A stretch of DNA of 40,929 nucleotides, from NCBI GenBank assembly GCA_016786485.1, contig JAEUWD010000016.1, positions 1 to 40,929 of the forward strand, in the 5' to 3' direction. The notes below the pieces were generated by a model. It did no database searches and had not been told where the DNA came from. It saw only the letters and a program-made list of their open reading frames with translations. This document shows positions 8,020-40,481 of the stretch, in pieces (position 1 is the first letter of the stretch; the number at the start of each line of letters is the position of its first letter). This DNA is from Bacteriovoracaceae bacterium (lineage in GTDB: Bacteria > Bdellovibrionota > Bacteriovoracia > Bacteriovoracales > Bacteriovoracaceae). Both the position numbers and the translations under genes were made by a program.

Positions 8020-8892
8020 ATGGCAAAAAAATATTGGTATCTTTTAGCATTTATTATTCTGGGTGGCATCCTGATTTTCTATTTCTCGCCATCAAAAAAG
8101 ACCAAAACGGCCAATCCTGAAAATCAGCCCAAACCAAAGCTAGCACTGAAAGAGTTTCAAGGACTTGAACAGACAAATCCAGCCGACAGTGGAGCGACCA
8201 AAGAAGCTCAAGCCGAAGAAAAAAATGAAAAGCGCACATTCAACCAAGTTAAGGCCGTGCTCGAAGAAAGTATCATGGGTTGTCGAACGGTCATTAACGA
8301 AAATTTTCCCGGTGAAGATAAAGACGTCGAACTTCCGACCGACTTAGATAAATTAACCGATGTCTTTAATGTCTACCAAGGCATGAATGATAAACTCGCC
8401 ACTTTTAATACCACCATGGTCGAAACTGATTTTGATCGCACTGAAATCTCGGAATACTTAAAAGATCAAAATGAAGATAAACAGTGCTATCCATACATTG
8501 AACAAGAGCTGATGATGGAAGCGCTCGATGCTCTGACCGACGAAGAATTAGAAGCTCCTCGAAAGAAAAAGTTACTTAAAATTTTTGTTCATCACCTAAC
8601 CGCGAGTGCCATTCGTCCACAATCGGTTTTTCATATGGCCTCATACCTAAATATGATGCAGGTTCTAGGCGAAAACAATTTGGTACCCAATCACATTACT
8701 CCGGAATTAGAACGAATGAAGACAGAGATCATGCAAGTGGTTTCTGAAACAGATGAAAGACTGTTGCGTTCTGCTCAGGAAAGCGATGTGGATGTCTATC
8801 TCGAAGTGCAAAGGAAAAGACAGGATGTTTTGCAAAAAACCAGTGAAGAATTTGCCAATAATGTTCGAGAAGTACTTATAAATGACAATTAA
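8020..8892 (+). CDS. Single-pass membrane-anchored protein, family unrecognised (paralogue 1)
   Basis: A 290-residue protein with an N-terminal membrane anchor (residues 5-22), then a Lys/Pro/Glu-rich linker to about 72 and a helical domain. Cysteines C88 (in MGCRTVINENFP) and C156 (in KQCYPYIEQEL) recur at matching places in the next gene (C85 and C156), and surrounding patterns also agree. The two are therefore probably diverged tandem duplicates. The domain should lie in the periplasm, where the cysteines could form a disulfide. The downstream gene begins inside this one (8882), so they are co-translated. No function can be assigned. Confidence 0.7.
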   Translation: MAKKYWYLLAFIILGGILIFYFSPSKKTKTANPENQPKPKLALKEFQGLEQTNPADSGATKEAQAEEKNEKRTFNQVKAVLEESIMGCRTVINENFPGEDKDVELPTDLDKLTDVFNVYQGMNDKLATFNTTMVETDFDRTEISEYLKDQNEDKQCYPYIEQELMMEALDALTDEELEAPRKKKLLKIFVHHLTASAIRPQSVFHMASYLNMMQVLGENNLVPNHITPELERMKTEIMQVVSETDERLLRSAQESDVDVYLEVQRKRQDVLQKTSEEFANNVREVLINDN

Positions 8893-9766
8893 AAAACATT
8901 ATAAATCTTTTCTGCTTATTATCAGTCTTTCCGCTCTTACGATAGGATTGATCTGGTTACCGTCAGACACTCTGATTAAACGTATTTTCAAAAATAATAA
9001 CAAACAGACTAAAAATTCGATCACAGAAGGCTTGGAAGAAAATGATCCTTATGCAGTCGAGCTTGAAAAAATTTATAACTATCATCACAAATTGAAACGT
9101 TTTAAAGCCGACGTTAAAATGTTAACTCAACGGTGCATGGAACTTATCGATATTAGTTTTCCAAGAAAGAAAGCGATGTTTCCTAAAAATCATGAAGGAC
9201 TTGAAAAATATTTCCGCATATTATTTGATGCCGTTGAAATTCATGACTACAATTATCGCCGTTATGATTTTTATCATATGGCCTTCAATCCACCAGAAGG
9301 AATTAAATACGAAAATGCGGTCAATATTCTGATTGAAAGAAATTATTGCGAAACCTATCAAGCGGATTTAATTAAGCACGCCATTGCTAACATTCGAGAT
9401 CCCGTCAATGTGATAGCCAATCGTAAAGAATTATTATCAAAAACTTTAAAGCGCTTTCAGGCACACCTACGCACTATTACTTCTTCGCAAGAATTAAAAA
9501 AGAGTAATCAAATTTTAAAAAGCTTAAGCGAATTACAAATGATTGATTCTTCTTTTCATTATCCAATTTTGGGCCTAAACGATGAAATTAATTTTTATTT
9601 GGAAGAAATTGATTTTGGCGATGCAGATTTTATGATCGAAAATCAAAAAAATGGAAAAGAAATTTATAATTTATTAAAAGCTGAATTTGATATGACACGA
9701 ACTTACGCACTTAAAATCGAAGAACTTATTCGAGATATTAGCTTAGAACTCAACTACCCTATTTAG
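8882..9766 (+). CDS. Single-pass membrane-anchored protein, family unrecognised (paralogue 2)
   Basis: A 294-residue protein with an anchor at residues 10-26, a basic/Asn-rich linker and a helical domain. It shares with the upstream protein the order anchor, linker, Cys, F-P motif (C85 ... ISFP), a helix like GLEKYFRILFD and a second Cys (C156 in NYCETYQADL). It overlaps the previous gene by 11 bases and the convergent CBS gene by eight. Likely a periplasmic partner of the upstream protein. No enzyme motif was seen. Confidence 0.7.
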   Translation: MTIKKHYKSFLLIISLSALTIGLIWLPSDTLIKRIFKNNNKQTKNSITEGLEENDPYAVELEKIYNYHHKLKRFKADVKMLTQRCMELIDISFPRKKAMFPKNHEGLEKYFRILFDAVEIHDYNYRRYDFYHMAFNPPEGIKYENAVNILIERNYCETYQADLIKHAIANIRDPVNVIANRKELLSKTLKRFQAHLRTITSSQELKKSNQILKSLSELQMIDSSFHYPILGLNDEINFYLEEIDFGDADFMIENQKNGKEIYNLLKAEFDMTRTYALKIEELIRDISLELNYPI

Positions 9767-13759: not shown

Positions 13760-14614
13760 TTATTCTATATTTAACTTAAACGGAATTTCGAGGATTTCAC
13801 TCTCATTATTGAGTAACAGAATGAGGTCTTTGGATTTAATGTATCGCAAAGTATTAAGCTCTTTAGGGGCTGAGCTTGGAATCGCAAAATTCTGATCAGC
13901 TTGCGTTTTCTTTTCTAATGGTTCTTGGAAGGCATAAAGATTGTTACCATCGGCCGACAAAACCAAGAGGTGTTTTTTCACGAAGGCCAAAGTCAGTGGT
14001 TGTTTACCCGTAATATCTTTAAAATTAAGTGAAACAAGAATCGCTGGTTTCTTATGAGGCATACGCGAATCAGCTTCAGAGTGAACGGCCGAAACAATTC
14101 CGTCTCCACGGGTGAACCAAATTTCTTTATTATCTGAATGATAAAAAATGGCACTGGCCGTTTGAATCTCATCCATATCGAAATAGTGACTCGGAACGAC
14201 GTTACCACTCATACTGCGATCAAAAACACGAATTTCTTGTCGTCCTAGATTATTCTTATTTAAAACCGCCACCATATTTGAATACGGACTTAAACTGACA
14301 CTTAAAATTTCATGCAACCCTGACTTCTCGCCTGAAATAAGATTTTGTTTTTGAATTTTATCTAAACCTTCGATTTGAATATAAAGCAAATTCTTTAAGG
14401 CCGTGACTTTAAATTTTTTGCCTTTCACATCTGTGATTTCATCGCGTGATTTTTCTGGCGCATGATTAAAAATCAACTCAAAACATTTTTTATCAACTAG
14501 ATTTTTACCTTTATAATCTTCACCATCTTGGATACACCCCTCTAAACTCACCTTCTGCGCCATGAGTGAAGTGTTAAACAGAAATAAAATCATTATGACA
14601 TATATTTTTATCAT
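13760..14614 (-). CDS. Secreted protein with propeller-like strands
   Basis: A 284-residue protein with a clear signal peptide (MIKIYVIMILFLFNTSLMAQ, cleavage after Ala-Gln region). Downstream are repeated blocks that look like WD/YVTN-type beta-propeller blades: LSVSLSPYSNMVAVLNKN, IFYHSDNKEIWFTRGDG, LTLAFVKKHLLVLSADG and LNTLRYIKSKDLILLLN. C27 and C44 may pair. The ATG overlaps the stop of the giant Ig-repeat lipoprotein gene (ATGA at 14611-14614), so the two are coupled; it may help secretion or assembly of that protein, but this rests on context only. Confidence 0.7.
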   Translation of the reverse strand: MIKIYVIMILFLFNTSLMAQKVSLEGCIQDGEDYKGKNLVDKKCFELIFNHAPEKSRDEITDVKGKKFKVTALKNLLYIQIEGLDKIQKQNLISGEKSGLHEILSVSLSPYSNMVAVLNKNNLGRQEIRVFDRSMSGNVVPSHYFDMDEIQTASAIFYHSDNKEIWFTRGDGIVSAVHSEADSRMPHKKPAILVSLNFKDITGKQPLTLAFVKKHLLVLSADGNNLYAFQEPLEKKTQADQNFAIPSSAPKELNTLRYIKSKDLILLLNNESEILEIPFKLNIE

Positions 14615-17600
14615 GGTTTCGATCCTGATACGGTTATTGTTATATCTCCACCAGTATCACCAGTGACTTGTAAATCAGCATTATGCGGGCCTGAAGCTGC
14701 TGGCACTCCACCAGTACCTGCTAAGAAAGTAACGGAAATTGTACATGTACCAGCAACTGGAATGGCAGCGCCGTTACAACCATCAACAATTGACCAATAT
14801 ACTCCTACCACAGGCGTGAACGTCGTTGTGGCACTGATAATAGCTACGTCACCAGTATTTCTAAAAACATAATCTTGTGAAGTATCAATCGCAACTGAAC
14901 CAAAACTTAGTGGGTCGGACGTACCATCTAAAACCAGACGACCACCACTGACAGCATAAGTATCTGTGTCTGTATTAGTCACAGCAGCACTATCAAAAAC
15001 TTGGAATGTATCATTCATACCACCATCAGCACCGACTTGAATGTCATAACAAATATCTGGAGCACAGGCATAGGGACCTGAGGTGATTATTGCGCCTGAA
15101 TTATTCGTTGAAAAATTAGCACCTACGAGAGGAGGAACACCACCAGCAACAACATAAGTGAAGGTGTCGTTACTGTTCATGCCACCCGGAGGTAAAATTT
15201 GAAGGGTATCGTAAACCACAGTCGTGCCCGACATACAAAGGGCCGGAGCCGCCATACCAGCGTCACGTGCTTGGAAAGAAACTGTACCGGCCGCGCTGTA
15301 TTGCAAAGTAGTGAATGTCGCGACACCAGCTACCGCGGCAACAGAACCACCAGCGATTGCTCCTGGACTTGTACCACCTGCACAAGCGGTATCCGTAATA
15401 TTAATGGTCGATGTCGCCTGAACGCCAGTTGTAATGCGGTTGTTATCAGCATCTAATAATTCAACCACAGGCTGAGTCGCAAAGTTTTTATTAATAGTTT
15501 CGTTGGATACTGGTTGAGTGGTCCAACTTAAATGATCTAAGACCCCGTGAGTAACATTAAAGTTTGCTGAGGTATCTGTGAAACCTCCTGAGGTGGCCAG
15601 TAAATTATAATTTGTTCCGACTTTATCTAAATTAATATCGTTAAAGGTTGCTAGACCTGCCACTGCAGCTTGCATTGCTGTACCACCCAGTACTGAACCA
15701 CCAGGGTTGGTATTAATACTTAAAGTAATATTGTCTGTATCAGCTGTGCGGTTACCATACACATCGATAATTTCGACGGTCATACTTGGTGCAATATTAT
15801 TATCTGTTGTAACATTGGAAGGTTGAGTAATAAATCGGATATCTGATTTGGCCGCAGGTGTAACATCAAAGAAGGCCGAGAGATCAATGGTTAATACACC
15901 AGAATTAGCTTCTAAGCGATAGCTTGGGAAAGCTTTGTCGATATTAATATTATTAAACGTCGCAAGACCTGCCACTGCAGCTTGAGTCAAAGTACCACCT
16001 AAAGTCGCTACTCCCGCAGATGGGTCCGTACTAAAGACTAAATTCACATTCGAAGTTGAAGTGGTACGGTTTAAATCCGCATCGAGAATCTCAACCGTGA
16101 TACTTGGAGCGATATTTGCGCCGGCCACGACGTTAGTAGGCTCTTGCACAAAACTTACACGATTATCGGCACCTGGTGTAACGTTAAAGGCAGCTGAGTT
16201 GACGGCACCGACTGATGGAGCTCTATCAGCTCTCAAGACGAAACCATTTCCGATTTTATTAATATCAATATCATTAAACGTTGCAACACCACCAACTGCA
16301 GCGCGAGTCACTGTCCCACCAAGCGTTGCACCAACTGAAGGGTCAGTGAAAATACTAAGTGTTACGTTGTTGGTGTCAGTCGTTAAATTAGCATTTGCAT
16401 CCAAGATACGAATCACCATGGATGGAGCAATCATGTTATCAGTTGTTACGTTACTTGGTTGAACAAACCAAGTTAAACTTGCTGCTGGTCCCGGAGTAAT
16501 ATTAAAGGTACTCGAGTTATCATTGAAAGCACCGTTAACCGCACGTAGGACAAAACCGGTTCCAATTTTATTGATAGTAATATCATTAAAGGTAGCAAGG
16601 CCCGCTACCGCTGCACGCGTAAGTGTTCCACCAAATGTGGCCCCAACTGATGGGTCAGTAAAGATTGAAAGCGTGATGTTCGCAGTCGAAGTCGTACGAT
16701 TTGACCAGGCATCGATATGTTCAACTGTAATGTTAGGTGCAATAACAACTCCCGCCACTTCGTTCGTTGGTTGTGAGACAAAACGCACATCCGCATTAGC
16801 TCCTGGAGTGATATCAAATGTATTACTTACATCCATCACCATGGCAGGTGAAGTTGCTCTTAATCGATAACCAGTGGCCGCGTTACGTAATCTTGCATTA
16901 TTAAAAGTCGCTAAACCTGTTCCGGCCGCTGTTGTCCGTGGATTCGTCACCACTAAATTGGCCGCATTTGGCACACCACCAGATGGGTCAGTATCAATCG
17001 CCAAAGTAATATTCACTCCACCGGCAGTATCAACGTTTCCATAAATATCAGTGATTCTGGCCGTAATACTTGGAGCATTATTCACATTAACAACCGCATT
17101 ACTTGGCTGAGTCACAAAATGAACTTCAGCATTAGCGGCTTTAGTAATTGTCTGGGCCGATGTGTTTTGTTGAAAAATCACACCATCATTAACATCAATA
17201 TGTCCTATGGCAACTGTGGCAGAAGCGTTATAAAAATTAAATCCAGTTACATCGACAGTCCCAGCGGCAGTCCATAAGAGTGGTCCAGCAACGGGAACAC
17301 TTGCCGTGTTACCTGCATCTGGCGCGTCTTGCACGCCCCCGTTATAATTAAAAGTAAAAGTACGACTGATTAAGAAACCCTGGTTACCAGAACCTGTATC
17401 ATTCATAACGTTGTTAGCAGCATCACGCGCAGTTAAGCGCCAAGTATGAGTACCAGCTGCTTCTGATGCGTTGACTGGTGCAAATAAATAATTATTAATC
17501 GTTCCGACCGCAGAGTTCCAAGCTAAGTTTTGCGTATCAGCTGCGGCAGTTGCAATACCTGCACCAGTGACACGAATTTCACAAATATGACCAACGTTAT

Positions 17601-20600
17601 AACCTAAGTCGAATAACTGATCGGTACTACTTGCGCTAAAATCTAAGGCCAATCCCGTAATATTTGCCGTTGCTCCACCGTCAGTCAGTGTTCCTGTCAT
17701 GGTGCCTGTGGTTGGAGCGGTATAACCATTATTGGCAACAAAAGCTAATGACATGGTAACCGGCGTCGCTGTTGTCGTTGGGTTCCCCCAAGTATCATGC
17801 ATAGTAAAGGTCACGACTGAATCTGCATCGGTTGTTCCGTTAGCACTTTCTGTTCCAGCAAAACCAACATGGCTGGCATGCACGTGATTGGCAGTACCTG
17901 GACTCATGACAACTGCATTCGTATTTGTCACAGAAACAGTTCCATCAGAAATGCGAATATTTCCTGCCAAGACGTTGACGGCAGCATCATAGAATGTGAG
18001 CAAGTTTGTGTAAGTAAATGTTCCTAGGGCCGTCCAAGCTTGTGTTCCAGCACCAGGTAAACTTGGCGCTGTACCTTCTGGTGAATTAAGTGCACCAGCA
18101 GACATATCTGTAATCGTCATAGTTAAAGCACTAAGGACAGTTTGATTAGCTGCACCGGTCATTATGTTTCCGGGAAGATCGTAAGCCGTTACCGTCCAAG
18201 ATTGTGCTGTCCCGGCAGTTCCAGTTAGTGGTGCATCTTTTTCAAAGGTATAACTCGCGACTGTTCCCGCAACTGAATTGAAAGTTAAATTTGTCGCCAG
18301 TGCGCCAGTTGTTGTGATCGCACCATTAGTCGCAATAATTTCCACGACATTACCAACAGTATAAGAGAGATCATGAATGCGTTGCACGGCCGTGGCACTA
18401 AAATTTAATGGAATGGTCGTAATATCTTGAGCTAAACCACCGCAACCATCACCATTGGCCGGTGAACAAGCTCTCAGTGTTCCATTTAATGCTCCGTAAC
18501 CACTCACTTTATTGAGAGCAAGATAACCAACTCCGATAAAAGTGGCATCGGTTGTATCGTTACCATAAACATCTTCGAGCGTGATATCAACCGCAGTCGT
18601 TGTTTGATTGGTTCCATTGGCACTTCCAGTAGCTGAAAAACCACCAGGCACCGTTGTCGTAAAATGATCAGCAACATTTGGTATAATATTAAAACGTGCT
18701 GTCGGATTAAATGGTCCAAGTGTATTTGTTGTATCGGTATAAGTGACATCACCAACAACATCATTACATAAACCCGATTCTGAATTATAAAAATTCCAAG
18801 TTAAGGTCGCAGTACCAGCAGCATTATAGACAACTGTACCGTTGGCCGGATCATTGGCCGCAGCAGTAAACGAAGCATTAGGCGCATCACACTGGGCATT
18901 CGTCGTAAAAGTATAATTGATGGTATTAAGTATCGCTTGTTCACCGATAAAATTATTGCCTGCACCGTCGAAAGCGGTAAGAGTATATGTTCTTGCAGTT
19001 CCTGCCACTAAATCCGTCGTAGCTGAAGGCACTAACGTATAGGAAGCAACTGAGCCTGTACTCATTTGCCATGCCACAACGACTGAAAGCGCATTATCAA
19101 TGGCAACTGAAGATGCTGTTGTAAATCCCCAGCGAACTGTATGTGGAACTTGATAACGAATATCATTAATCGTCACGGTTGCATTATTTTGTAAATCGAT
19201 AGTGGTAATACCAGTACCTGTGAGCGGTCCAACGTTAACTGCTCCAAAAATTCTCACTGGTAATAAATCCAAACTAGCATCGGCTGCGTTCCCAGTTGCG
19301 ACAGGGTTACCAAATTGATCGCGTGACTGAATTGTAAGCGCATAGTTTGTGGTATTGTCAGCTGTGCCCGTATTATTTCCAGTAAAGACGATATGATCCG
19401 CGGCATCCGGATTAACAGTTAAAGCAATTGTACTCGTGCCTGAAATAGCGCCACTATCAATAATGTCAATATTTCCAATCGCAATCACTTCTGCTAAACG
19501 CGGTACCACGTTGAAAGTTGCAACACCGCCGGCAAAGGCAACAGAAGGTGTGGTTGGTAAAGTTGGAGTATCGCCTTCTTGAGATGTCCCAAAATTCGTA
19601 ATCGTAAATGTTCGCGCATTTAAAGTTGCATCTAAACCTGTCAATGTATTGTTTGAAGCATCTTTAGCTGTCACCGTTAGCGCCAACGTATTACCGGCCG
19701 TCACAGGTGAAGCAAAAGTTATTTCATAATGATCAAGTGATCCAATCACCGCATTAAAAGTATAATCGAAAGATCGAACTGAGTTCATCGTCACCGAACC
19801 ACCCGTGACTCTTAACTCCATCGTTCCAAAAACATCATAAGTTAAATCACTCACGGTATGAGTACCACTGACTAAATTTAAGTTGGTGGTTGAGCCACCT
19901 AAGTTACCAACGGTTTGAGGTGTAATATGGAAAGGAATTAAATCAATATTTGAATCACCTGTTGCTATATTTCCGTAAATATCTCGTGCGGTAATCGTCG
20001 CGCTAAAAGTTGAAACACCATCAGCGTTAATAGCTCCTGGTGAAACTAAATTTGCATAATGATGAAGCACATCTGCATCGATAGTAATTGAGCCTGCGCC
20101 ACCATTACCACTATCACCTAGACCATCATTAACTGTGATCAAATTTTTATTAATACTTTCTTCCGCAAAAAAATTAAAATTTATTGGGTCAGAAACACCA
20201 CTGGTAAATGGAATGACGCCCGTATGATGCGAAGGTGCAATCGAATACGGCACAGGTGTGGTGGCAGCGGGAGAAGCAGTTGTAAAATTATATGTTCCAA
20301 GGAGCGCGTCTAAACCAGTTATCACGTTACCTGCAATATCATTGGCTTGTATGCGCGCTGTAAAACCTGCGCCGGCCGTCGCTGAGTTTGGAATATTGAT
20401 TAAACTATAACTTGTAACGGTATTAGCAACTGGTGTGAAAGTGGCCGTGGTTCGTTGGGCCGCAGGTGTCGTTACGGAACCTGTATCAGTTGCCACAATT
20501 TGAACCGCGTGTGAAACACCATAAGTTAAACCTGAATATGTGGCCGAAGAACCTGGTCCAAAGACTAAAGCAGATCCTCCGCCAATCGTTCCAACCAAGG

Positions 20601-23600
20601 CTTCATCAGCGGTACGAACCATACTTAAATTAACATTGGCACCGATCCCCGTTGTGGTTGGGTTACCCCACTGATCGCGCGCTTGAACTTCAACTTGAAA
20701 ACCACTCGCACTGTCTGCCACATACGGACCGACTGGATTGCGAGTTGCATAGTGATGAAGTGTATTTGGGTTAACGGTTAAATTGGCAGAAGTACCTGTG
20801 ACTGCACCACCTGTCGCGGTAATCGTAAAAGGCGTTGTCGTAACAGCATCGTAAACCGTGACGTTAGTCACTGTCGCTTGACCCGATGACCAGTCAGCTG
20901 TGACTAATGGAAACACACTTGGCGCCGTTCCTTCTGGAGAAGCACCGTTGGTGTGCGTGAAGGTATAAACGGCCAGTGGTGTATAATTGAGAACTTGATT
21001 TAAATCCGCATCACGTGCCGTGATTCTCACATTAAATGGAGTACCGGCCGTAACTGTGGTTGAGCCACCAACTTGTTGGACTAAGAAGTTAGTCGCTACA
21101 CCGTTGGAAATAGTAATAGCACCAGTGTTATCTGAGACAGCGCCAATTTGAGTTGTAATCGTACAAGTTCCAGGAGCTGTATCAGCATCAAAGTTCACTC
21201 TTTGAGTCGCAGTAATTGGCCCCGGAACTGGAGTTAAATCTCCCGCCACACAGTTACCGACTGGGGCGACTGCAGACCAATTTGAATTTTGATCACCTAT
21301 ATAATTTCCGGAATTATCATAACCAGCAGCATATAAGGCCAACGCTGTATCAGTCGTCATTGTTGTTGCAGCTGACACAGGAACACCACCATTATTATTG
21401 GCGGTACGAATTGACATGAAAGCTAATGGGCCCTGATTGACTGTGATGAGACCTGATAAGGCGGTTGTTATCACAAATGACGGATCGATTAGAACTAAAC
21501 GTGGCTCATCAGCAGCTTCCGTGTCATTAATTAATAAATTGTTTGCAACAGTTGCTGTTCCTGAAACAATATTTAAGTTCGTCGCTTTAAAAACACCAGG
21601 CGTGGTTTCAATTCTTGGCTGGGTATACGTTGGAGTAATTTCACTTGGAAGACTCGAATCCAGCACCGTCGAACCAATATAATTTAACTGAACCGGATAA
21701 GCTGCGTTGGTATAGTTGCTCGCAAAATTTCCATCCGAATCGTAGAGATTCACATTAAATGACCAGAGCGTCCCAGCGGTTTCGGTGAAGGCCAATCCAT
21801 CTCCACTACCGCCATCAATGCCCCATGATTTTGGAGCTCCTGGGACAATCGTAAATAAACCTGTGTTGTCACTAATTGCGCCCACGGTACAAGTTAGAGT
21901 TCCGGTACCAACTAAGGTTGGAGCAAACGTTACCGCGGAGACAGGACCAGCACCAGGAGTTACGTTACCACCTAGTACCATCACGGCCGCAGGTGCAGAA
22001 GTTTCGCTCCAGATAGCAGCTGCGCTATCAATTAAATAATTTCCGTAAGAATCATAGGTCGCACAATATAAATTATAACTATCATCCGCCGTTCTTGTTG
22101 CGGCAGTCGCCACGAAAGTATTCGCATCGCCACCTGCTCCGGCCGCAGCGGAACGAACTAAGTTATATGTATGAGCCGTATTATTAATCGTAAGGGGACC
22201 AGAATTTCCAATGAGTACTCCGTCATTTACCGTGAGGTCAGGATTTTCACTCGTTCTAAAGAATGTTGTGGTTGGACGAGGTGGAATTAAAACGCCTTGA
22301 GAAAAATTATAAAGTGCTCCGTTAGTAGGAATAGAAGGAGCATTCGCTGCCACTGGTAATGCCGCAGGTGGTACGGTGGCGGTTCCGGTGGTTGACCAGT
22401 TAAGTGGAAGGTTCGAACCATCGTAAGCCGTTGCTACGTTACCGCGAATATCGCGCGCTTCCAGTCGCACTTGCAACGGAGTACCAGCAGTGAAAGTGAA
22501 GTTACCTTCAGTTCCAAAGCCAGTAATAATAAAATGATCTGGAGAACCATCATCAATTGTCACAAGACCGGTGGTATCAGTGAGAGCATTGTAAGGTGGA
22601 TCGCCGACAACACTGATTGTTCCAGTATTAACAACATAGGGATCTAAACGAATAGTTTGCGTGTTTGTAAAATTAAATGGCGCCATGAAATTTAAGCCGC
22701 CATCAGGAAATGTTTTGCCCCAATCACCGGTAGCAGCAATACCTTCAATACAGTTATCCCAGGCATCGTAATAAAAACTGTACATGTACTCTGGATTTGG
22801 AACTGTGATGGTAAAGGTGGTGATCTCAGTCGAGTTACAAACGTTGGTATCAACGATGCGAATTTTTGTTGGTACGTTATCGAGAACTTGTAAATTGGCT
22901 GTATTATCAGCCACTAGACCTGAACCAGAAACATTGACGACAAAAGTGTCAGCACCGTTTTCTGAAGAGTTAAAAAGTGTCACAGGAAAAGTGGCAACAC
23001 CCGCGACAAAATTATGCAGCCCATCTGCCGGTAAACTCGCGGCCTGCGCAACTGGTGCGGGAGAACTTCCGTTGGTGGAAGTAAAGAAAAGTTCCATGTT
23101 ACCGTTGATGGTTGCATCAGGTAACGCCGCTGGCATAATCAACGCTTCAACTGTGATGGTGAATGGTACACCGGCAGTTGGCGTCGCCGTACTGGCAGTG
23201 ACTCGCCATTGAGTCGCTGTCCCGGTCACGAAAATGTTAAAGAAAACTTCTACCGTTCCTGTTGCCAAAAAGACTTTGGCCGAGATAACAGAAACACCTG
23301 AAGAAGCTCCCGAGTTAACCATCGTCTGAGCAAAACCACCCACATCAGTATTTGCAATTGGCGTTGCAAACGTGACGCTGGTTCCAGAGACAACTTCAAA
23401 ATAAACCGGGATATTTTCGACGTCAGCTAAACCAGTAATTTGCACTCTAAGCGGTAAGGTGAAGGTGGAGTTAAGAGGTGCAAATTGACCGTCGCCAGAA
23501 TTGACTGTTAATGTGACTGAATCGAGTTCGTTTGTGTCTTGATCGAGATTGATACCTTTCGAGCAAGAAGCGATAAAAAGGAGGATGAAAAGTGATGAGA

Positions 23601-23694
23601 AAAAAGAATCAGAAACCCGGCCTAAGTCATGCGACTTAACTCTTTGGTTGTACCAAAAATTTAACCAGTTCTTAAATTTCACTCTCTTATCCAC
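14611..23694 (-). CDS. Giant Ig-like repeat surface lipoprotein (about 3,027 residues)
   Basis: The N-terminus ends in a lipobox (LFIASC, Cys44), so it should be lipidated and shown on the surface. The body is a string of beta-rich units of invasin/filamin-like type: I count 22 places with a D-x-x-x-N motif such as DQWGN, DIYGN or DVYGN preceded by alternating hydrophobics, one per unit. The C-terminal third includes a run of near-identical units with TDPS, AAVAGLATFN and FNITPG. The last about 90 residues (LSFGSVAIDTSQDYVFRNTG) resemble an ASPM/HYDIN-like 'choice-of-anchor D' domain. Likely an adhesin or stalk. The start could be GTG at 23694 or, with a better SD, GTG at 23682. Confidence 0.88.
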   Translation of the reverse strand: MDKRVKFKNWLNFWYNQRVKSHDLGRVSDSFFSSLFILLFIASCSKGINLDQDTNELDSVTLTVNSGDGQFAPLNSTFTLPLRVQITGLADVENIPVYFEVVSGTSVTFATPIANTDVGGFAQTMVNSGASSGVSVISAKVFLATGTVEVFFNIFVTGTATQWRVTASTATPTAGVPFTITVEALIMPAALPDATINGNMELFFTSTNGSSPAPVAQAASLPADGLHNFVAGVATFPVTLFNSSENGADTFVVNVSGSGLVADNTANLQVLDNVPTKIRIVDTNVCNSTEITTFTITVPNPEYMYSFYYDAWDNCIEGIAATGDWGKTFPDGGLNFMAPFNFTNTQTIRLDPYVVNTGTISVVGDPPYNALTDTTGLVTIDDGSPDHFIITGFGTEGNFTFTAGTPLQVRLEARDIRGNVATAYDGSNLPLNWSTTGTATVPPAALPVAANAPSIPTNGALYNFSQGVLIPPRPTTTFFRTSENPDLTVNDGVLIGNSGPLTINNTAHTYNLVRSAAAGAGGDANTFVATAATRTADDSYNLYCATYDSYGNYLIDSAAAIWSETSAPAAVMVLGGNVTPGAGPVSAVTFAPTLVGTGTLTCTVGAISDNTGLFTIVPGAPKSWGIDGGSGDGLAFTETAGTLWSFNVNLYDSDGNFASNYTNAAYPVQLNYIGSTVLDSSLPSEITPTYTQPRIETTPGVFKATNLNIVSGTATVANNLLINDTEAADEPRLVLIDPSFVITTALSGLITVNQGPLAFMSIRTANNNGGVPVSAATTMTTDTALALYAAGYDNSGNYIGDQNSNWSAVAPVGNCVAGDLTPVPGPITATQRVNFDADTAPGTCTITTQIGAVSDNTGAITISNGVATNFLVQQVGGSTTVTAGTPFNVRITARDADLNQVLNYTPLAVYTFTHTNGASPEGTAPSVFPLVTADWSSGQATVTNVTVYDAVTTTPFTITATGGAVTGTSANLTVNPNTLHHYATRNPVGPYVADSASGFQVEVQARDQWGNPTTTGIGANVNLSMVRTADEALVGTIGGGSALVFGPGSSATYSGLTYGVSHAVQIVATDTGSVTTPAAQRTTATFTPVANTVTSYSLINIPNSATAGAGFTARIQANDIAGNVITGLDALLGTYNFTTASPAATTPVPYSIAPSHHTGVIPFTSGVSDPINFNFFAEESINKNLITVNDGLGDSGNGGAGSITIDADVLHHYANLVSPGAINADGVSTFSATITARDIYGNIATGDSNIDLIPFHITPQTVGNLGGSTTNLNLVSGTHTVSDLTYDVFGTMELRVTGGSVTMNSVRSFDYTFNAVIGSLDHYEITFASPVTAGNTLALTVTAKDASNNTLTGLDATLNARTFTITNFGTSQEGDTPTLPTTPSVAFAGGVATFNVVPRLAEVIAIGNIDIIDSGAISGTSTIALTVNPDAADHIVFTGNNTGTADNTTNYALTIQSRDQFGNPVATGNAADASLDLLPVRIFGAVNVGPLTGTGITTIDLQNNATVTINDIRYQVPHTVRWGFTTASSVAIDNALSVVVAWQMSTGSVASYTLVPSATTDLVAGTARTYTLTAFDGAGNNFIGEQAILNTINYTFTTNAQCDAPNASFTAAANDPANGTVVYNAAGTATLTWNFYNSESGLCNDVVGDVTYTDTTNTLGPFNPTARFNIIPNVADHFTTTVPGGFSATGSANGTNQTTTAVDITLEDVYGNDTTDATFIGVGYLALNKVSGYGALNGTLRACSPANGDGCGGLAQDITTIPLNFSATAVQRIHDLSYTVGNVVEIIATNGAITTTGALATNLTFNSVAGTVASYTFEKDAPLTGTAGTAQSWTVTAYDLPGNIMTGAANQTVLSALTMTITDMSAGALNSPEGTAPSLPGAGTQAWTALGTFTYTNLLTFYDAAVNVLAGNIRISDGTVSVTNTNAVVMSPGTANHVHASHVGFAGTESANGTTDADSVVTFTMHDTWGNPTTTATPVTMSLAFVANNGYTAPTTGTMTGTLTDGGATANITGLALDFSASSTDQLFDLGYNVGHICEIRVTGAGIATAAADTQNLAWNSAVGTINNYLFAPVNASEAAGTHTWRLTARDAANNVMNDTGSGNQGFLISRTFTFNYNGGVQDAPDAGNTASVPVAGPLLWTAAGTVDVTGFNFYNASATVAIGHIDVNDGVIFQQNTSAQTITKAANAEVHFVTQPSNAVVNVNNAPSITARITDIYGNVDTAGGVNITLAIDTDPSGGVPNAANLVVTNPRTTAAGTGLATFNNARLRNAATGYRLRATSPAMVMDVSNTFDITPGANADVRFVSQPTNEVAGVVIAPNITVEHIDAWSNRTTSTANITLSIFTDPSVGATFGGTLTRAAVAGLATFNDITINKIGTGFVLRAVNGAFNDNSSTFNITPGPAASLTWFVQPSNVTTDNMIAPSMVIRILDANANLTTDTNNVTLSIFTDPSVGATLGGTVTRAAVGGVATFNDIDINKIGNGFVLRADRAPSVGAVNSAAFNVTPGADNRVSFVQEPTNVVAGANIAPSITVEILDADLNRTTSTSNVNLVFSTDPSAGVATLGGTLTQAAVAGLATFNNINIDKAFPSYRLEANSGVLTIDLSAFFDVTPAAKSDIRFITQPSNVTTDNNIAPSMTVEIIDVYGNRTADTDNITLSINTNPGGSVLGGTAMQAAVAGLATFNDINLDKVGTNYNLLATSGGFTDTSANFNVTHGVLDHLSWTTQPVSNETINKNFATQPVVELLDADNNRITTGVQATSTINITDTACAGGTSPGAIAGGSVAAVAGVATFTTLQYSAAGTVSFQARDAGMAAPALCMSGTTVVYDTLQILPPGGMNSNDTFTYVVAGGVPPLVGANFSTNNSGAIITSGPYACAPDICYDIQVGADGGMNDTFQVFDSAAVTNTDTDTYAVSGGRLVLDGTSDPLSFGSVAIDTSQDYVFRNTGDVAIISATTTFTPVVGVYWSIVDGCNGAAIPVAGTCTISVTFLAGTGGVPAASGPHNADLQVTGDTGGDITITVSGSKP
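15195..17140 (-). repeat. Tandem Ig-like repeat units within the giant lipoprotein gene
   Basis: Six consecutive units of about 100 codons share opening FVTQPSN or FVQEPTN, the D-x-x-x-N motif, TDPS, GGT, AGLATFNDI and closing FNITPG. The four central units are most alike in both protein and DNA, which suggests recent duplication or recombination; the last unit is divergent. Such repeats can change in number between strains. Confidence 0.75.
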
Positions 23695-32552: not shown

Positions 32553-34922
32553 CTATTTTCCAGGTATCGGGATGTTGGCTGATTTAAGATGATTAATCTG
32601 CGGATTTTCAGCCGGTCCTTTAAGTTCAAATTCTTGTTCAAAGATTTTTCCCACCACTGGTTTTGAAAAGTCTTTAATAATTGGAATATAGGTGGAAGCC
32701 GCGACTAATGCTGCCAAAGGATTCGCTGCCATAGCGACGAGTCCATAAACAGAAATAAGTTTTTGCAAATTGACTTGAATGCGGACTCGAACATTTAAAG
32801 TTTTATCCGTTAAAAGCAAAGAACCTTTGGGATATAAATCCATCGCAGGTAATGAGATAATAAAGTCTTTGGTTTTGAGGACTGAATCTTTTAAATCAAC
32901 CTCACCAGCGAAGCGATTAATTTTATCGTCTTTTTCCGTGGCACTTAGAAAACTCAACGTCATAATATCTAAAAATTTGCGAAGCTTTGAACTGGTTTTT
33001 TTGATAACTGTAAAATCTAACCACTCAACATCAAACTTCCCTTCACTAGTAGCAATCGAAAAATCTGAAATCTTACCTGGCCAATGTAATTTTCCTTTAA
33101 TACTGCCTTTACCACCTATAGTTGATTCCGTTAAATTCTGATATTTAAGCAATTCACTTAATTGATTAATTTTTAAAAAACAAAGAAGATCGGTTTTCAT
33201 TTCTTTGCCTAAAAAAGTTGAAAACTGGCAATCTTGTAAATCAAACATTTCTGATTTTAACTTTTTGATATGAACGACTGATGTTTGCTGTTCAACTCGA
33301 TCAAAAATCACCGCCACATCTTTAAAGTCCATTCCGAGATAATTGAGTTTTTCGATGTTTACAGCTACCGGTTTCGATTTAATAAAAGCCGGTTCCTTAT
33401 ATTTTTTACCTTTCTTAAATTCGATCTTGGGTAAATTCAAATGGGTAAACTTCATTAAATTTTGTGTTTCATCAAAAATAAATTCCCCACCCGCTTGCAC
33501 TCCTTCCAGTTGCCAAAGTGTCGGTGTCACAACTTTAAACTTGAATCTTTCTTCGCCGTAGCTAGCTTCTACTTCTCCACTAATGAGTCCACTTTCATTA
33601 AAATTCACGCCGCCCGACAAATTACCTAAAACAATATTGGTATTAAAAATGCCTAATCTCGTTTCTGGAGTGAAAAGAGTCGAACCATAAATGGTAAATT
33701 GATCCAAGTCATCAAAAGGAAGCGACAAACGTAGTTGCATCGAAGCTTCATTTTCTAATTGAATAATATTTCCCAGAAAATTAATCTTGGACCAAATAGG
33801 CGTTTGCTGCAGATAAATGGGAACATCCGCCCCCTGAAATTTTAAGATAGTATCAACGGTCAAAATATTTTTTTTAAATTCATACTCAACCAAACCTCGT
33901 ACGACATCCACTTTTTCCGTTTGTCCTGAAACGACTTTGGCCTGAAGTTTTCCATTTTTAACTGTAATGACAGCTGCCACTTTTTCAACTTGTGGCCACT
34001 TCGGTGCAAATTTAAGTTTCACATCGTCTACATTCACATGCCCCTGCAAACTTTCCGTCTCACCTAGCTGACGAACATTTCCTCGCCACTCAAACTGCCC
34101 ATCCTTAAGTACACCATTTTTTACCAGTCTCATCCAACGCTTTAAAAAATCTGAGTTATCCCAAAATTTTTGAATCGATGCTACCAATTGAACGGCATCC
34201 AATTGCTGAATGTTCAGACTTAGATAATCATCATTCGTTGCTGCTTGGGCCGTGGCCGAAAACAAACCACGACCAGTCATTTCTGTCGCTGGCCCTTTTA
34301 AACGAAAATGGGGAATGACCATTTTGTCTTCCAACTTAGTGAGACTAAATTCACCTTTGATATTATTCTTATAAGAAATATCAAAAGAATATTTTATCTC
34401 GATGTGATTAAGTTCCGTTTTGAGCTGTAACTTAATATTCGAAACACGATTTTGTACTGCTTTCTTTTCTAAAAAAATGATAGTTGAGTTCTGAACCGTA
34501 AATTTAAGTTCTAAGTTTTTGATTCGGTCATAAATCTCAATTAAAGATAAAGATTCACTATCGACTTGGTTTTCTGAAATATTCAGATCTTCTTTATTTA
34601 AGTAAAAATTTAATTGGCCGATTTTGATTTCAGCAATTTTAAAATCAAACATGATAAGTGACATTAACCAGTTGGGGCGAATTTCTAATTCTGAGACTTT
34701 AAAATTTTTATCTGCGAATTCAAAATCCTCTAATAATAGTCCGGGTCCCCACTGTGACCACTTCACTCGAATTTTTTCTAATTTAACTTGGGTTTGCACC
34801 CGGCCTTCAATCGCGGCACGTAAATCATTGGTATGTTTACCAACGAAATAAGACAATAAAAAGCTGGTGAAAAAAAAGAAAATAAAAATTGAAAGTGAGA
34901 TAAATACGAGCTTTTTTTTCAC
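32553..34922 (-). CDS. YhdP/AsmA-like (DUF3971) envelope lipid-bridge protein
   Basis: A 789-residue protein with one N-terminal membrane span (residues 5-24) and a long beta-rich periplasmic part. The N-terminal VQTQVKLEKIRVKWSQWGPG and the C-terminal FDVEWLDFTVIKKTSSKL, DLYPKGSLLLTDKTLNV and final PAENPQINHL match the AsmA-like YhdP/DUF3971 family. These proteins form groove-like bridges that move phospholipid between inner and outer membranes. It is shorter than E. coli YhdP (about 1,266 residues). It follows a small lipoprotein gene by only three bases, so the two form an operon. Confidence 0.78.
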   Translation of the reverse strand: MKKKLVFISLSIFIFFFFTSFLLSYFVGKHTNDLRAAIEGRVQTQVKLEKIRVKWSQWGPGLLLEDFEFADKNFKVSELEIRPNWLMSLIMFDFKIAEIKIGQLNFYLNKEDLNISENQVDSESLSLIEIYDRIKNLELKFTVQNSTIIFLEKKAVQNRVSNIKLQLKTELNHIEIKYSFDISYKNNIKGEFSLTKLEDKMVIPHFRLKGPATEMTGRGLFSATAQAATNDDYLSLNIQQLDAVQLVASIQKFWDNSDFLKRWMRLVKNGVLKDGQFEWRGNVRQLGETESLQGHVNVDDVKLKFAPKWPQVEKVAAVITVKNGKLQAKVVSGQTEKVDVVRGLVEYEFKKNILTVDTILKFQGADVPIYLQQTPIWSKINFLGNIIQLENEASMQLRLSLPFDDLDQFTIYGSTLFTPETRLGIFNTNIVLGNLSGGVNFNESGLISGEVEASYGEERFKFKVVTPTLWQLEGVQAGGEFIFDETQNLMKFTHLNLPKIEFKKGKKYKEPAFIKSKPVAVNIEKLNYLGMDFKDVAVIFDRVEQQTSVVHIKKLKSEMFDLQDCQFSTFLGKEMKTDLLCFLKINQLSELLKYQNLTESTIGGKGSIKGKLHWPGKISDFSIATSEGKFDVEWLDFTVIKKTSSKLRKFLDIMTLSFLSATEKDDKINRFAGEVDLKDSVLKTKDFIISLPAMDLYPKGSLLLTDKTLNVRVRIQVNLQKLISVYGLVAMAANPLAALVAASTYIPIIKDFSKPVVGKIFEQEFELKGPAENPQINHLKSANIPIPGK

Positions 34923-37830: not shown

Positions 37831-39876
37831 ATGAGTGAAAAATTAAATTTGAACGACCTCAAGCCTAAACTAAAAGAATGCCAAGTTTTTACGGGTGAAA
37901 AAAACATTGTCATCGAGGATAGCAAAACTCGCGCACAAGTTGTTTTACTCAAAGAGAACGAAGTTATTCTGAAACTGCTTGATGGTGAAAATACAGTAAA
38001 GGACATCTCGACCTATCTTTATCATCATCACGGTGGGGTGAATTTTAATACGATTATCACGACCATTCGTTTATTAAGTGAAGCTAATCTCCTCGAAGGA
38101 ACCAAACATTACTTCGAAAATCTTCGAGATGAAAAAAGTCCGCATGAACAAAAGCCTTCTTTTTTTAATCGCAGCTTGTTTGAATTTCCTCTCGTTAGAA
38201 AAATAGAAATGAATATCGCTCGCCCAGAATTGTATTTTGGTTTGCTCGGAATGCTAGTCATGATGGTTGGGATGAATCTCGATGCTTTTGATAATATTCA
38301 TATGGCGCGTTTCCTAAAAAATCAAAGTGGTTATAGTGAGGCCCTTCCAAGAATTTTTATTTTCAGCTCGATTCTTTTAAGCATGAAAACTTTATTCCAA
38401 GGTCTGATGTTACTTTTCTCGGTAGGTTCATTTTATGCACCATCCATCAAAATTAACCTCTATTCAATTTCGCTTGGATTAAATGATAACACGATTTACT
38501 CACATCCGAAAAAAGCTGTGATTATTAGTTATGGTGTAATGTCAGCCTTAATGTACTTAGTGTGTTTTGCACTGATTGATTATTTTCCACAAGCTAAAAT
38601 GTATCGCCATGATTTCGCCGTACTCGCGATGATGTTAACTCTGATTGAATTAAATCCTTATCGTCGTAGCGAACTAACCAAACTTTTTTATTTCTTTTAC
38701 GCCGCTGAACAACTAAAAAGTATTATGCCGTATCTGAAAAACTGTACACTCACTGGTTTGTGGGAAGATACGGGGGCAAAACTGTCTGATGAAGTGAGAT
38801 ATGTAACGTATTCACTACTAGCGATTGGCTGGGCGATTTTCTTCAGTGTCTTTAGTCTTGAACTGATGTTCAAATGTTTTTCAGGACTCTTTTTACAAAT
38901 TCAAATGGGAGAACCTGTCAGCCGCATTTCAGCTATTTTAGTCGGCATGGGTCTTTTATTTATCTCGGGATATCTCTCAATCGATCTGTTCCACACATTG
39001 GTAAAAAACATTGTGTCGCCTATTCTTCTTCCATTGATGAAATTGAAAGCACGTCCAAAAGATTATACTCAACCAGATATCGCACTTGAAAATATTCGTA
39101 AGAACCTGCAAGCGAATATGATCTTTAATCAATTGAGTCCTGAAGCTCTGGACTACGTGCTTAACAATGCACGACTAAAATCAGTCAAAAAAGGTACACA
39201 TCTTATTTTACAAGGTGATACAGCGAAAGAAGTTTTTTTCTTGGTAAAGGGTCGCGTTGATGTCAATTCTCGTGAGAAAACGGGACGTATTAAACATATT
39301 GTTGAATTAGGTCCAAACTCGGTGATTGGAGAAATGTCAATTGTTGAAAAACGCAAGCGCGCTGTGAACGTGACTGCTCTGGAAGATCTGGTTTTCTTAG
39401 AATTTAGCGCCAGTGTTTTTGAGAACCTGATGAACAAAATGCAATTTAAGGAAGATTATATAAAGCTTACAAATCGAATTAAAATTTCTCAGTTCGTGGC
39501 CTCAGCTAACCTCTTCCGAGATTTCCCACCAGAAATTATGAACGTTTTTGTGGAAGCAGGAGACCTCGTTTTGTTTCCGGGCGGACATAATATTGTGGAA
39601 GAAGGCGAAAGTGATAAAACCTTCTATCTGCTTATCAAAGGCAAAGTCGATATCAGTAAAGGTGGGCACCATATTACAGAATTAAAACAAGGTGATTTCT
39701 TTGGTGAAGTGGCCTTAATTGCCAATGTTCCAAGAACCGCCACCGTTACCACGAAAGAAGAAAGTTTATTTTTATTTATTGAAGACAAACGATTTTGGAA
39801 TATTTTATCCAACAATATCGAGCTGGCCATGTATATTGAAAGTGTTGGCCGTAGTCGTATGAACGAGGCCGCATGA
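37831..39876 (+). CDS. PqqD-like / inactive M50-like membrane / twin cNMP-binding fusion protein
   Basis: A 681-residue protein in four parts. Residues 20-95 look like a PqqD-type winged domain (VVLLKENEVILKLLDGENTV ... LLSEANLL). Residues 130-400 form a membrane domain with at least six spans; the order of segments (LMLLFSVGSFYAPS, then LIELNPYRRSELTKLF) follows M50-type membrane proteins with NPLL-DGYY, but the HExxH position reads SMKTLFQG and the NP-x-x-x-DG Asp is Ser, so a protease is unlikely. Residues 431-540 and 560-675 are cyclic-nucleotide-binding domains; the second has a near-consensus FGEVALIANVPRTATV, the first GEMSIVEKRKRAVNV. It overlaps the GspG-like gene by four bases. Confidence 0.75.
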   Translation: MSEKLNLNDLKPKLKECQVFTGEKNIVIEDSKTRAQVVLLKENEVILKLLDGENTVKDISTYLYHHHGGVNFNTIITTIRLLSEANLLEGTKHYFENLRDEKSPHEQKPSFFNRSLFEFPLVRKIEMNIARPELYFGLLGMLVMMVGMNLDAFDNIHMARFLKNQSGYSEALPRIFIFSSILLSMKTLFQGLMLLFSVGSFYAPSIKINLYSISLGLNDNTIYSHPKKAVIISYGVMSALMYLVCFALIDYFPQAKMYRHDFAVLAMMLTLIELNPYRRSELTKLFYFFYAAEQLKSIMPYLKNCTLTGLWEDTGAKLSDEVRYVTYSLLAIGWAIFFSVFSLELMFKCFSGLFLQIQMGEPVSRISAILVGMGLLFISGYLSIDLFHTLVKNIVSPILLPLMKLKARPKDYTQPDIALENIRKNLQANMIFNQLSPEALDYVLNNARLKSVKKGTHLILQGDTAKEVFFLVKGRVDVNSREKTGRIKHIVELGPNSVIGEMSIVEKRKRAVNVTALEDLVFLEFSASVFENLMNKMQFKEDYIKLTNRIKISQFVASANLFRDFPPEIMNVFVEAGDLVLFPGGHNIVEEGESDKTFYLLIKGKVDISKGGHHITELKQGDFFGEVALIANVPRTATVTTKEESLFLFIEDKRFWNILSNNIELAMYIESVGRSRMNEAA

Positions 39877-40481
39877 TCGGTAGACTTCTAAGACTCGCTA
39901 TTAAAATTCTACCACTGATTACCATTTATAAAGGTATCACGAGTGGTGGTGCGCGCTTAAAACCATTTATTGATATGGGCAAAGTTGCCTTAACTCAATA
40001 TGAAGTGGCCGAAATTACCAAACTGGTTGTGAGTGACTACAAGAGCAGCAATGGTCTACTCGTTTCACCACAAGACTTTAGTTACTTCGTAAAAGATCAA
40101 TTTAACAGTCAATATTCAATTCTTGCGCGGGAAATTCGTGGTGACCGCAGTCATAATATGTCGGTCGATATTTGGGGTAATGCTTTTATGCTTATGCCTA
40201 ATAGTGATGTTAGCAATGTAAAAATTGTTAGTTCTGGCCCTGATCTAACTTATGATACCAAAGATGATATCGCGATGGATTTCAATATCAATCGACGAGG
40301 ACCTGCTTCAGCGAATAACGAGATGGAACAAAACGATTATCCAACGGACCAAAATGCTGGTGACTTTGATGAAGAAGGCTTTGATGTGGATGGATTTAAT
40401 CGAGCCGGCTACGACCGCGACGGTTACGATCGAAATGGTATTCACCAGTCCGAAAAAGAAATGAGTCAAAACGATTACTAA
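39873..40481 (+). CDS. GspG-like protein with C-terminal pentapeptide repeat tail
   Basis: A 202-residue protein. The N-terminus (residues 3-22) is moderately hydrophobic but lacks the GFTLIE pilin signature. Residues 95-135 carry DIWGNAFMLM and SSGPDLTYDTKDDI, the Asp-x-Trp-Gly-Asn and Ser-Gly-Pro-Asp...Asp-Asp-Ile signatures of the C-terminal part of the major pseudopilin GspG (calcium loop). Residues 169-190 are four copies of a five-residue repeat (GFDVD, GFNRA, GYDRD, GYDRN), rich in Asp and Tyr. It overlaps the PqqD-cNMP gene (ATGA), so the two work together. Its 3' end overlaps the convergent SDR gene by four bases. Confidence 0.7.
   Translation: MIGRLLRLAIKILPLITIYKGITSGGARLKPFIDMGKVALTQYEVAEITKLVVSDYKSSNGLLVSPQDFSYFVKDQFNSQYSILAREIRGDRSHNMSVDIWGNAFMLMPNSDVSNVKIVSSGPDLTYDTKDDIAMDFNINRRGPASANNEMEQNDYPTDQNAGDFDEEGFDVDGFNRAGYDRDGYDRNGIHQSEKEMSQNDY

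Follow-up and report, generated by a model that had tools for sequence, protein, structure and literature searches.

A PqqD-like, M50-like membrane protein with two cyclic-nucleotide-binding domains is paired with a GspG-like protein in Bacteriovoracaceae and related bacteria

The PqqD-M50 ‘putative peptide zinc metalloproteases’ of the YydH type combine a PqqD-like N-terminus with a following M50-like membrane domain. Here we describe a two-gene locus whose first product (A) shares this domain order, with an NP..DG-type motif kept in three of its relatives (L109, L203 and L209). Unlike the YydH-type proteins, A has no HExxH motif, carries two additional cyclic-nucleotide-binding (CNB) domains, is accompanied by a GspG-like partner (B), and has no recognised precursor or RiPP enzymes nearby; no bona fide PqqD-M50 family was seen in this phylum. 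EGY3 of plant chloroplasts, a membrane protein related to S2P/M50, has been described as a pseudoprotease (PMC9355673). The likeness to A lies in a probable S2P/M50 relationship together with a probable loss of protease function. To our knowledge, EGY3 lacks PqqD and CNB domains and has no partner resembling a pseudopilin. The iRhoms, pseudoproteases of the rhomboid family, lack key catalytic residues and regulate protein trafficking or fate (PMC3149277). They resemble the working principle proposed for A, an intramembrane protease fold from which key catalytic residues are gone, but their fold family is unrelated, they are eukaryotic, and they have no nucleotide sensing. Like PKA-R and PKG, A has its CNB domains in tandem and keeps their phosphate-binding cassettes intact, with Z 20.5 to PfPKA-R, although in A these domains are fused to a membrane domain and there is no kinase. 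The bacteriocin-type transport-associated cyclic-nucleotide protein family TIGR03896 gives a double CNB match in 36 of 36 A members (best E 3.3e-21), yet the architecture is different and A of the locus studied here reaches only 54.9 of 161 bits, far under the family cut-off. The counterparts of B are GspG, PulG and EpsG (PDB 3g20, 1t92, 5o2y, 3fu1), with which it shares the fold (Z 8-9) and the calcium loop; B differs from them in lacking the prepilin peptidase site and Glu5, in lying outside a gsp operon and in being coupled to A.

The window, by which we mean the whole stretch of 40,929 nucleotides that was analysed (contig JAEUWD010000016.1 of assembly GCA_016786485.1, Bacteriovoracaceae bacterium), is one contig of a draft genome of 2.98 Mb. 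The gene pair lies near its end:
37831..39876, + strand: gene A, 681 aa, PqqD/RRE-like domain, degenerate M50-like membrane domain and two CNB domains
39873..40481, + strand: gene B, 202 aa, GspG/PulG-like protein
39873..39876, + strand: ATGA overlap of 4 nt between the stop of A and the start of B; the -4 gap recurs in most GspG-type pairs
Translation of A and B is likely coupled through the ATGA overlap. We assign the domain content and the A-B pairing with high confidence, and the pair gives the impression of a signalling or export device that has not been described before. Relatives are known for each part; neither the PqqD/M50/CNB combination nor the A-B pairing was found in the open literature, a search that covered few subscription journals and is incomplete to that extent. 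Used alone as a query against genome contigs, the window sequence gave no match; a family alignment was needed, and profile searches with it identified close relatives among Bacteriovoracaceae and Bacteriovoracia MAGs of the Bdellovibrio group. Plasmid records gave no match to the membrane part of A, and their matches to whole A covered the CNB part only. Elsewhere in the window, an ORF of 3027 aa (14611-23694, - strand; G+C 0.41-0.46 versus about 0.37 around it; no Pfam match) probably encodes a large protein that is secreted or lies at the surface. At 8020-9766 (+ strand) two ORFs, 290 and 294 aa long and without a Pfam match, overlap each other and are possibly a tandem duplicate or pair, and a YhdP/AsmA-like protein is encoded at 32553-34922 (- strand; Pfam E 1.2e-52).

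Conservation of the A-B pairing had been set beforehand as a test of the first-pass annotation of this DNA, and it was passed strongly. Full-length A occurs in 13 genomes of the same family, with the 12 relatives 34-61 percent identical to the window protein, and B lies immediately downstream of A at all 13 of these loci, while further neighbours differ between most of them. Profile searches of 369 genomes of the phylum found A-type matches in 48, then 60 genomes. A GspG-like gene is directly downstream of A at 28 of 55 loci with full-length or near-full-length A (27 recognised by motif; the other is L085, in whose loop Phe replaces Trp), and many of these pairs share the 4-nt overlap. Since these 28 pairs span eight families and fall on both sides of the midpoint-rooted tree, with other neighbours changing, the pairing is most simply ancestral, with losses. 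The converse search of the phylum with a B profile returned 27 matches. Of these, 25 adjoin A, so that the pairing is nearly exclusive; the other two are an orphan and a true T2SS GspG, which belongs to a gsp operon. Two of the A proteins beside B matches had escaped the first A search. The association of B with A has a Fisher p of about 4e-20, which is overstated because genomes were treated as independent. The orphan (L201:3287-3679, + strand), a GspG-like homologue of B, has an N-terminus resembling a signal peptide, and there is no A in its vicinity.

Some A proteins occur in other contexts. Clade f10 has A without B, except at the outlying locus L085, and soluble relatives consisting of a PqqD-like wHTH and two CNB domains lack the membrane part altogether (L113, L115, L116, L217, L218, L219); B is therefore not needed for every A. 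In clade f10 a PilZ-like gene usually lies upstream of A, often with a 4-nt overlap (L090, L091, L094, L103 and others), and genes for a lipoprotein-like S8 subtilase or M14 carboxypeptidase lie downstream. From these contexts and the relatives without a membrane part, A is read as a modular nucleotide-sensing unit able to change partners. Because B is replaced in f10 by PilZ-like, subtilase or M14 neighbours, peptide or protein handling by A is something that we infer; should A handle anything at all, B itself is the probable object. As a c-di-GMP/cNMP/protease cluster, the set of PilZ-like, A, S8 and M14 genes is conserved in the clade, and at L115 an S8 gene still adjoins the soluble relative.

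The N-terminal part of A contains the first of its domains:
37879..38097, + strand: A residues 17-89, PqqD/RRE-like beta3-alpha3 winged-helix domain, from predicted secondary structure and hhalign versus PqqD
The predicted elements (E17-21, E25-30, E36-40, H41-49, H56-67, H72-84) follow the beta3-alpha3 winged-helix topology by which RRE domains are defined (PMC12710340). Compared with 30 PqqD sequences by hhalign, the A-family N-terminus gave Prob 87 with a score of 33.9, versus 12.7 for the best of 60 column shuffles and 9-12 for control pairings. An RRE has been defined by a PqqD profile match of at least 80 percent (PMC7470986), a level that the A family exceeds with our own hhalign profiles in place of HHpred. 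The Pfam PqqD model matches only one of 36 A members (E 0.011). The PqqD-like N-terminus proposed in the first-pass annotation is thus borne out. For the radical-SAM or peptide precursor gene that was to be looked for along with it, the outcome in the window was negative: none of the ORFs scanned there was recognised as a radical-SAM, YcaO or precursor gene, and PF05402 has no match in the genome itself, so that a RiPP pathway is not indicated.

The membrane part of A is where resemblance to M50 proteases has to be weighed:
38218..39045, + strand: A residues 130-405, membrane domain with six predicted TM helices; its M50/S2P-like core has beta strands following TM2
38386..38400, + strand: A residues 186-190, KTLFQ, probably replacing HExxH; K/R at 186 in 32/35, K/Q/R at 190 in 28/35
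38653..38673, + strand: A residues 275-281, NPYRRSE, equivalent of M50 NPxxxxDG; Pro276 invariant in 35/35, acid at 281 in 30/35
Hydropathy and predicted helices give about six TMs in residues 130-405, a number with which the PqqD-like and CNB domains would share one side of the membrane. The predicted order is a helix at 171-197, strands at 200-218, helices at 228-249 and 259-273 and the NP at 275-276; two strands thus stand between TM2 and TM3 and TM4 ends in NPYRRSEL, the same order as TM2, strands, TM3 and TM4 of the S2P core. The DG is retained in L109 (NPFVKSDG), L203 (PFLPFDG) and L209 (PFFRGDG), and an unguided alignment places the first two of these on the NP motif of the window protein. 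Against S2Ps of the phylum, A scored 22.5 by hhalign, while 60 shuffles that keep hydropathy reached at most 17.4 and the reversed sequence reached 14.6; the score exceeds the shuffles only with the larger S2P set, earlier sets having given marginal scores. As the alignment is confined to the NP..DG motif, homology is likely and unproven, and we regard an M50 origin of the membrane domain as probable. The family gave nothing against RseP by hhalign, Pfam M50 (PF02163) matches neither L202/L203 nor any of the 36 members at E up to 10, and NCBIfam never reports M50 for the A family. The fold search with whole A (VIA) lists only CNB-containing proteins and for that reason is no test of the membrane part.

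The first-pass annotation had read an M50-like part that lost HExxH and the NP-DG Asp and is no longer a protease. As a domain reading this was accurate, with homology graded as likely: HExxH is absent from all 35 aligned A members, which supports the loss of protease function for the whole family, and for this reason A is not classed as a functional M50 member. The loss of the NP-DG Asp needs correcting: the window protein has neither the Asp nor the Gly, but an acid is kept, as Glu281 here and as D/E in 30 of 35 members (the exceptions being L098, L111, L117, L118 and L202). A polar or salt-bridge cluster may now stand where the zinc site was. One could suppose instead that A has kept an enzymatic activity, as a protease or some other hydrolase whose centre has been replaced, for example by Lys186 and Glu281, given that the spacing of the conserved basic and acidic positions resembles that of the zinc ligands in HExxH and NP-DG. 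We consider this highly improbable: the acid is missing in the five members just named, and a structural salt bridge accounts for the pattern equally well. We also know of no precedent for an enzyme with such a replaced centre, and we count this against the idea.

The C-terminal half of A is occupied by its nucleotide-binding domains:
39118..39438, + strand: A residues 430-536, CNB1, phosphate-binding cassette VIGEMSIVEKRKRAV
39508..39810, + strand: A residues 560-660, CNB2, canonical cassette FFGEVALIANVPRTATV
The assignment of two cyclic-nucleotide domains holds by Pfam (PF00027 in two stretches of A, E 4.7e-37) and by the fold match to the tandem CNBs of PKA-R (VIA Z 20.5). The cassettes are intact in nearly all members, with E501 in 34/34 and R510 in 30/34 for CNB1, and E626 in 36/36 and R635 in 35/36 for CNB2, and class III cyclase genes are present in 16 of 16 genomes tested; cyclic-nucleotide gating of A is plausible on these two grounds. 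In Bdellovibrio, the CNB-type sensor domain of Bd1971 binds cAMP (PMC6717892). A membrane domain followed by C-terminal CNBs is also the layout of CNG/HCN channels, and A might be a ligand-gated channel or transporter for an ion or solute, gated by its CNBs as in those channels, with B as a periplasmic calcium-dependent accessory subunit. The weak Pfam SK_channel match of the window protein (E 0.018) and the HCN, CNG and AKT entries listed by VIA point in this direction, but the former is found in one of 36 members and nearly all of the latter match by way of the CNB part. Inspection by eye showed no pore-loop signature, the strands in the membrane part, the invariant Pro276 and the NP/PF..DG of the relatives suit M50 better, and a PqqD-like domain would be out of place in channels of this kind. 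We therefore think a channel or transporter unlikely.

The product of gene B has the following features:
39894..39947, + strand: B residues 8-25, hydrophobic segment at the N-terminus, conserved as K-x-[LI]-P-x-x-T-x-x-x-G, no prepilin leader
39963..40292, + strand: B residues 31-140, pseudopilin globular fold, VIA Z 8.8 to PulG 1t92
40230..40271, + strand: B residues 120-133, GspG-type calcium loop SxGPD......DDI, invariant in 13/13 apart from I/V/L133
40362..40439, + strand: B residues 164-189, tail of pentapeptide repeats G-[YF]-[DN]-x-x, in 9/13 close relatives
Structure models were built on 11-sequence alignments, and that of B has a mean pLDDT of 79, with about 85 for the repeat tail. 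Its six best VIA matches are the T2SS major pseudopilins GspG, PulG and EpsG, at Z 8.0-8.8 (next 5.9), and the calcium-loop region (D99, W101, G102, S120, G122, P123, D124, D131, D132) is invariant in 13/13. B accordingly has the globular fold and calcium loop of GspG. The prepilin leader G|FTLxE is absent from B in all 13 close relatives, as anticipated by the earlier reading of a GspG-type loop without a pilin N-terminus, and in the absence of this motif B is not classed as a functional GspG member. Among the B proteins a prepilin-like leader was found in L209 alone (L209:4552-5010, + strand), a divergent B with NRG|SFIFVFVLILIII and a long TM helix, lacking Glu5. This leader and helix suggest that B descends from a pseudopilin. 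The A adjoining it is the one that keeps PFFRGDG, and L209 is a possible evolutionary intermediate for both A and B.

Should B still belong to type II secretion, the pair could be a T2SS accessory, B, as a divergent pseudopilin, entering the pseudopilus or regulating it, and A acting as a release gate controlled by cyclic nucleotides. We assign this a low probability. The fold and calcium loop of B, the leader and helix of the L209 protein, and a true GspG elsewhere in 15 of 16 genomes tested agree with it, but B lacks G|FTLxE and Glu5 and is in no gsp operon, adjoining A while the true GspG lies elsewhere. Co-occurrence with T2SS was rejected as a link to A-B: 112 of 125 genomes in the order have T2SS GspG, whether or not they carry A-B, and a system that is near-universal there is uninformative.

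The best-conserved stretch of B is its N-terminus. Residues 8-25 have a mean pairwise identity of 0.54, versus 0.40-0.47 for the domain, and K11 (Arg in one), P14, T17 and G21 are conserved in 13/13; shorter related forms of the segment recur in distant B proteins. Such conservation is unusual for a plain signal or anchor and is as expected if a partner reads the segment; it is a candidate ligand for the RRE-like domain of A. The hydrophobic stretch is short in several lineages, leaving the sidedness of B uncertain. Conservation like that of a leader, together with a PqqD-like domain that fits the RRE definition and the secreted proteases downstream of A in clade f10, could also be expected of an exporter or maturation platform in the style of YydH-type RiPP systems, where A would serve a peptide from the B N-terminus or another precursor and a different protease would cut. 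This we hold to be improbable, since the scanned window ORFs and the genome itself offered no RiPP enzyme, precursor or PF05402 match, and since B is a folded protein of 202 aa rather than a small precursor.

The explanation that we favour, tentatively, is that A is a cyclic-nucleotide-responsive pseudoprotease of the inner membrane, a receptor or anchor that holds B rather than cutting it. B would be translated directly after A, and its hydrophobic N-terminal segment would dock on the cytosolic PqqD/RRE-like domain and in the groove where the former protease took up its substrate. With the zinc site gone, B would be left uncut, and its calcium-stabilised GspG-like domain would face the periplasm. 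A would change when cAMP or cGMP binds in the cytosol to its two CNB domains, and by this switch B may be held, released or made accessible. An RRE-like domain and a dead intramembrane-protease fold, together with a partner whose N-terminus is hydrophobic and conserved, are most simply accounted for if A binds that N-terminus uncut under cyclic-nucleotide control. Against it we count that the M50 assignment consists of a single motif, a topology that is predicted, and profile scores that are marginal, that the A proteins of clade f10 and the soluble relatives occur without B, and that the hydrophobic stretch of B is short in several lineages.

The broader proposal, which we put forward as doubtful, is that of a phylum-wide membrane signalling device of predatory-type bacteria in which an S2P-derived pseudoprotease would act as a CNB-controlled gate for a dedicated, non-polymerising pseudopilin. 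It would link cytosolic cAMP/cGMP, and in one clade c-di-GMP via PilZ, to a calcium-loaded periplasmic protein, and would reuse an RRE outside RiPP biosynthesis. If true, a bacterial intramembrane-protease fold would have been reused as a nucleotide-controlled receptor, an RRE domain would operate outside peptide natural products, and a pseudopilin fold outside type II secretion. The setting is a phylum whose predators depend strongly on cyclic-nucleotide signalling, and A-B is a defined two-gene unit, open to deletion and testing.
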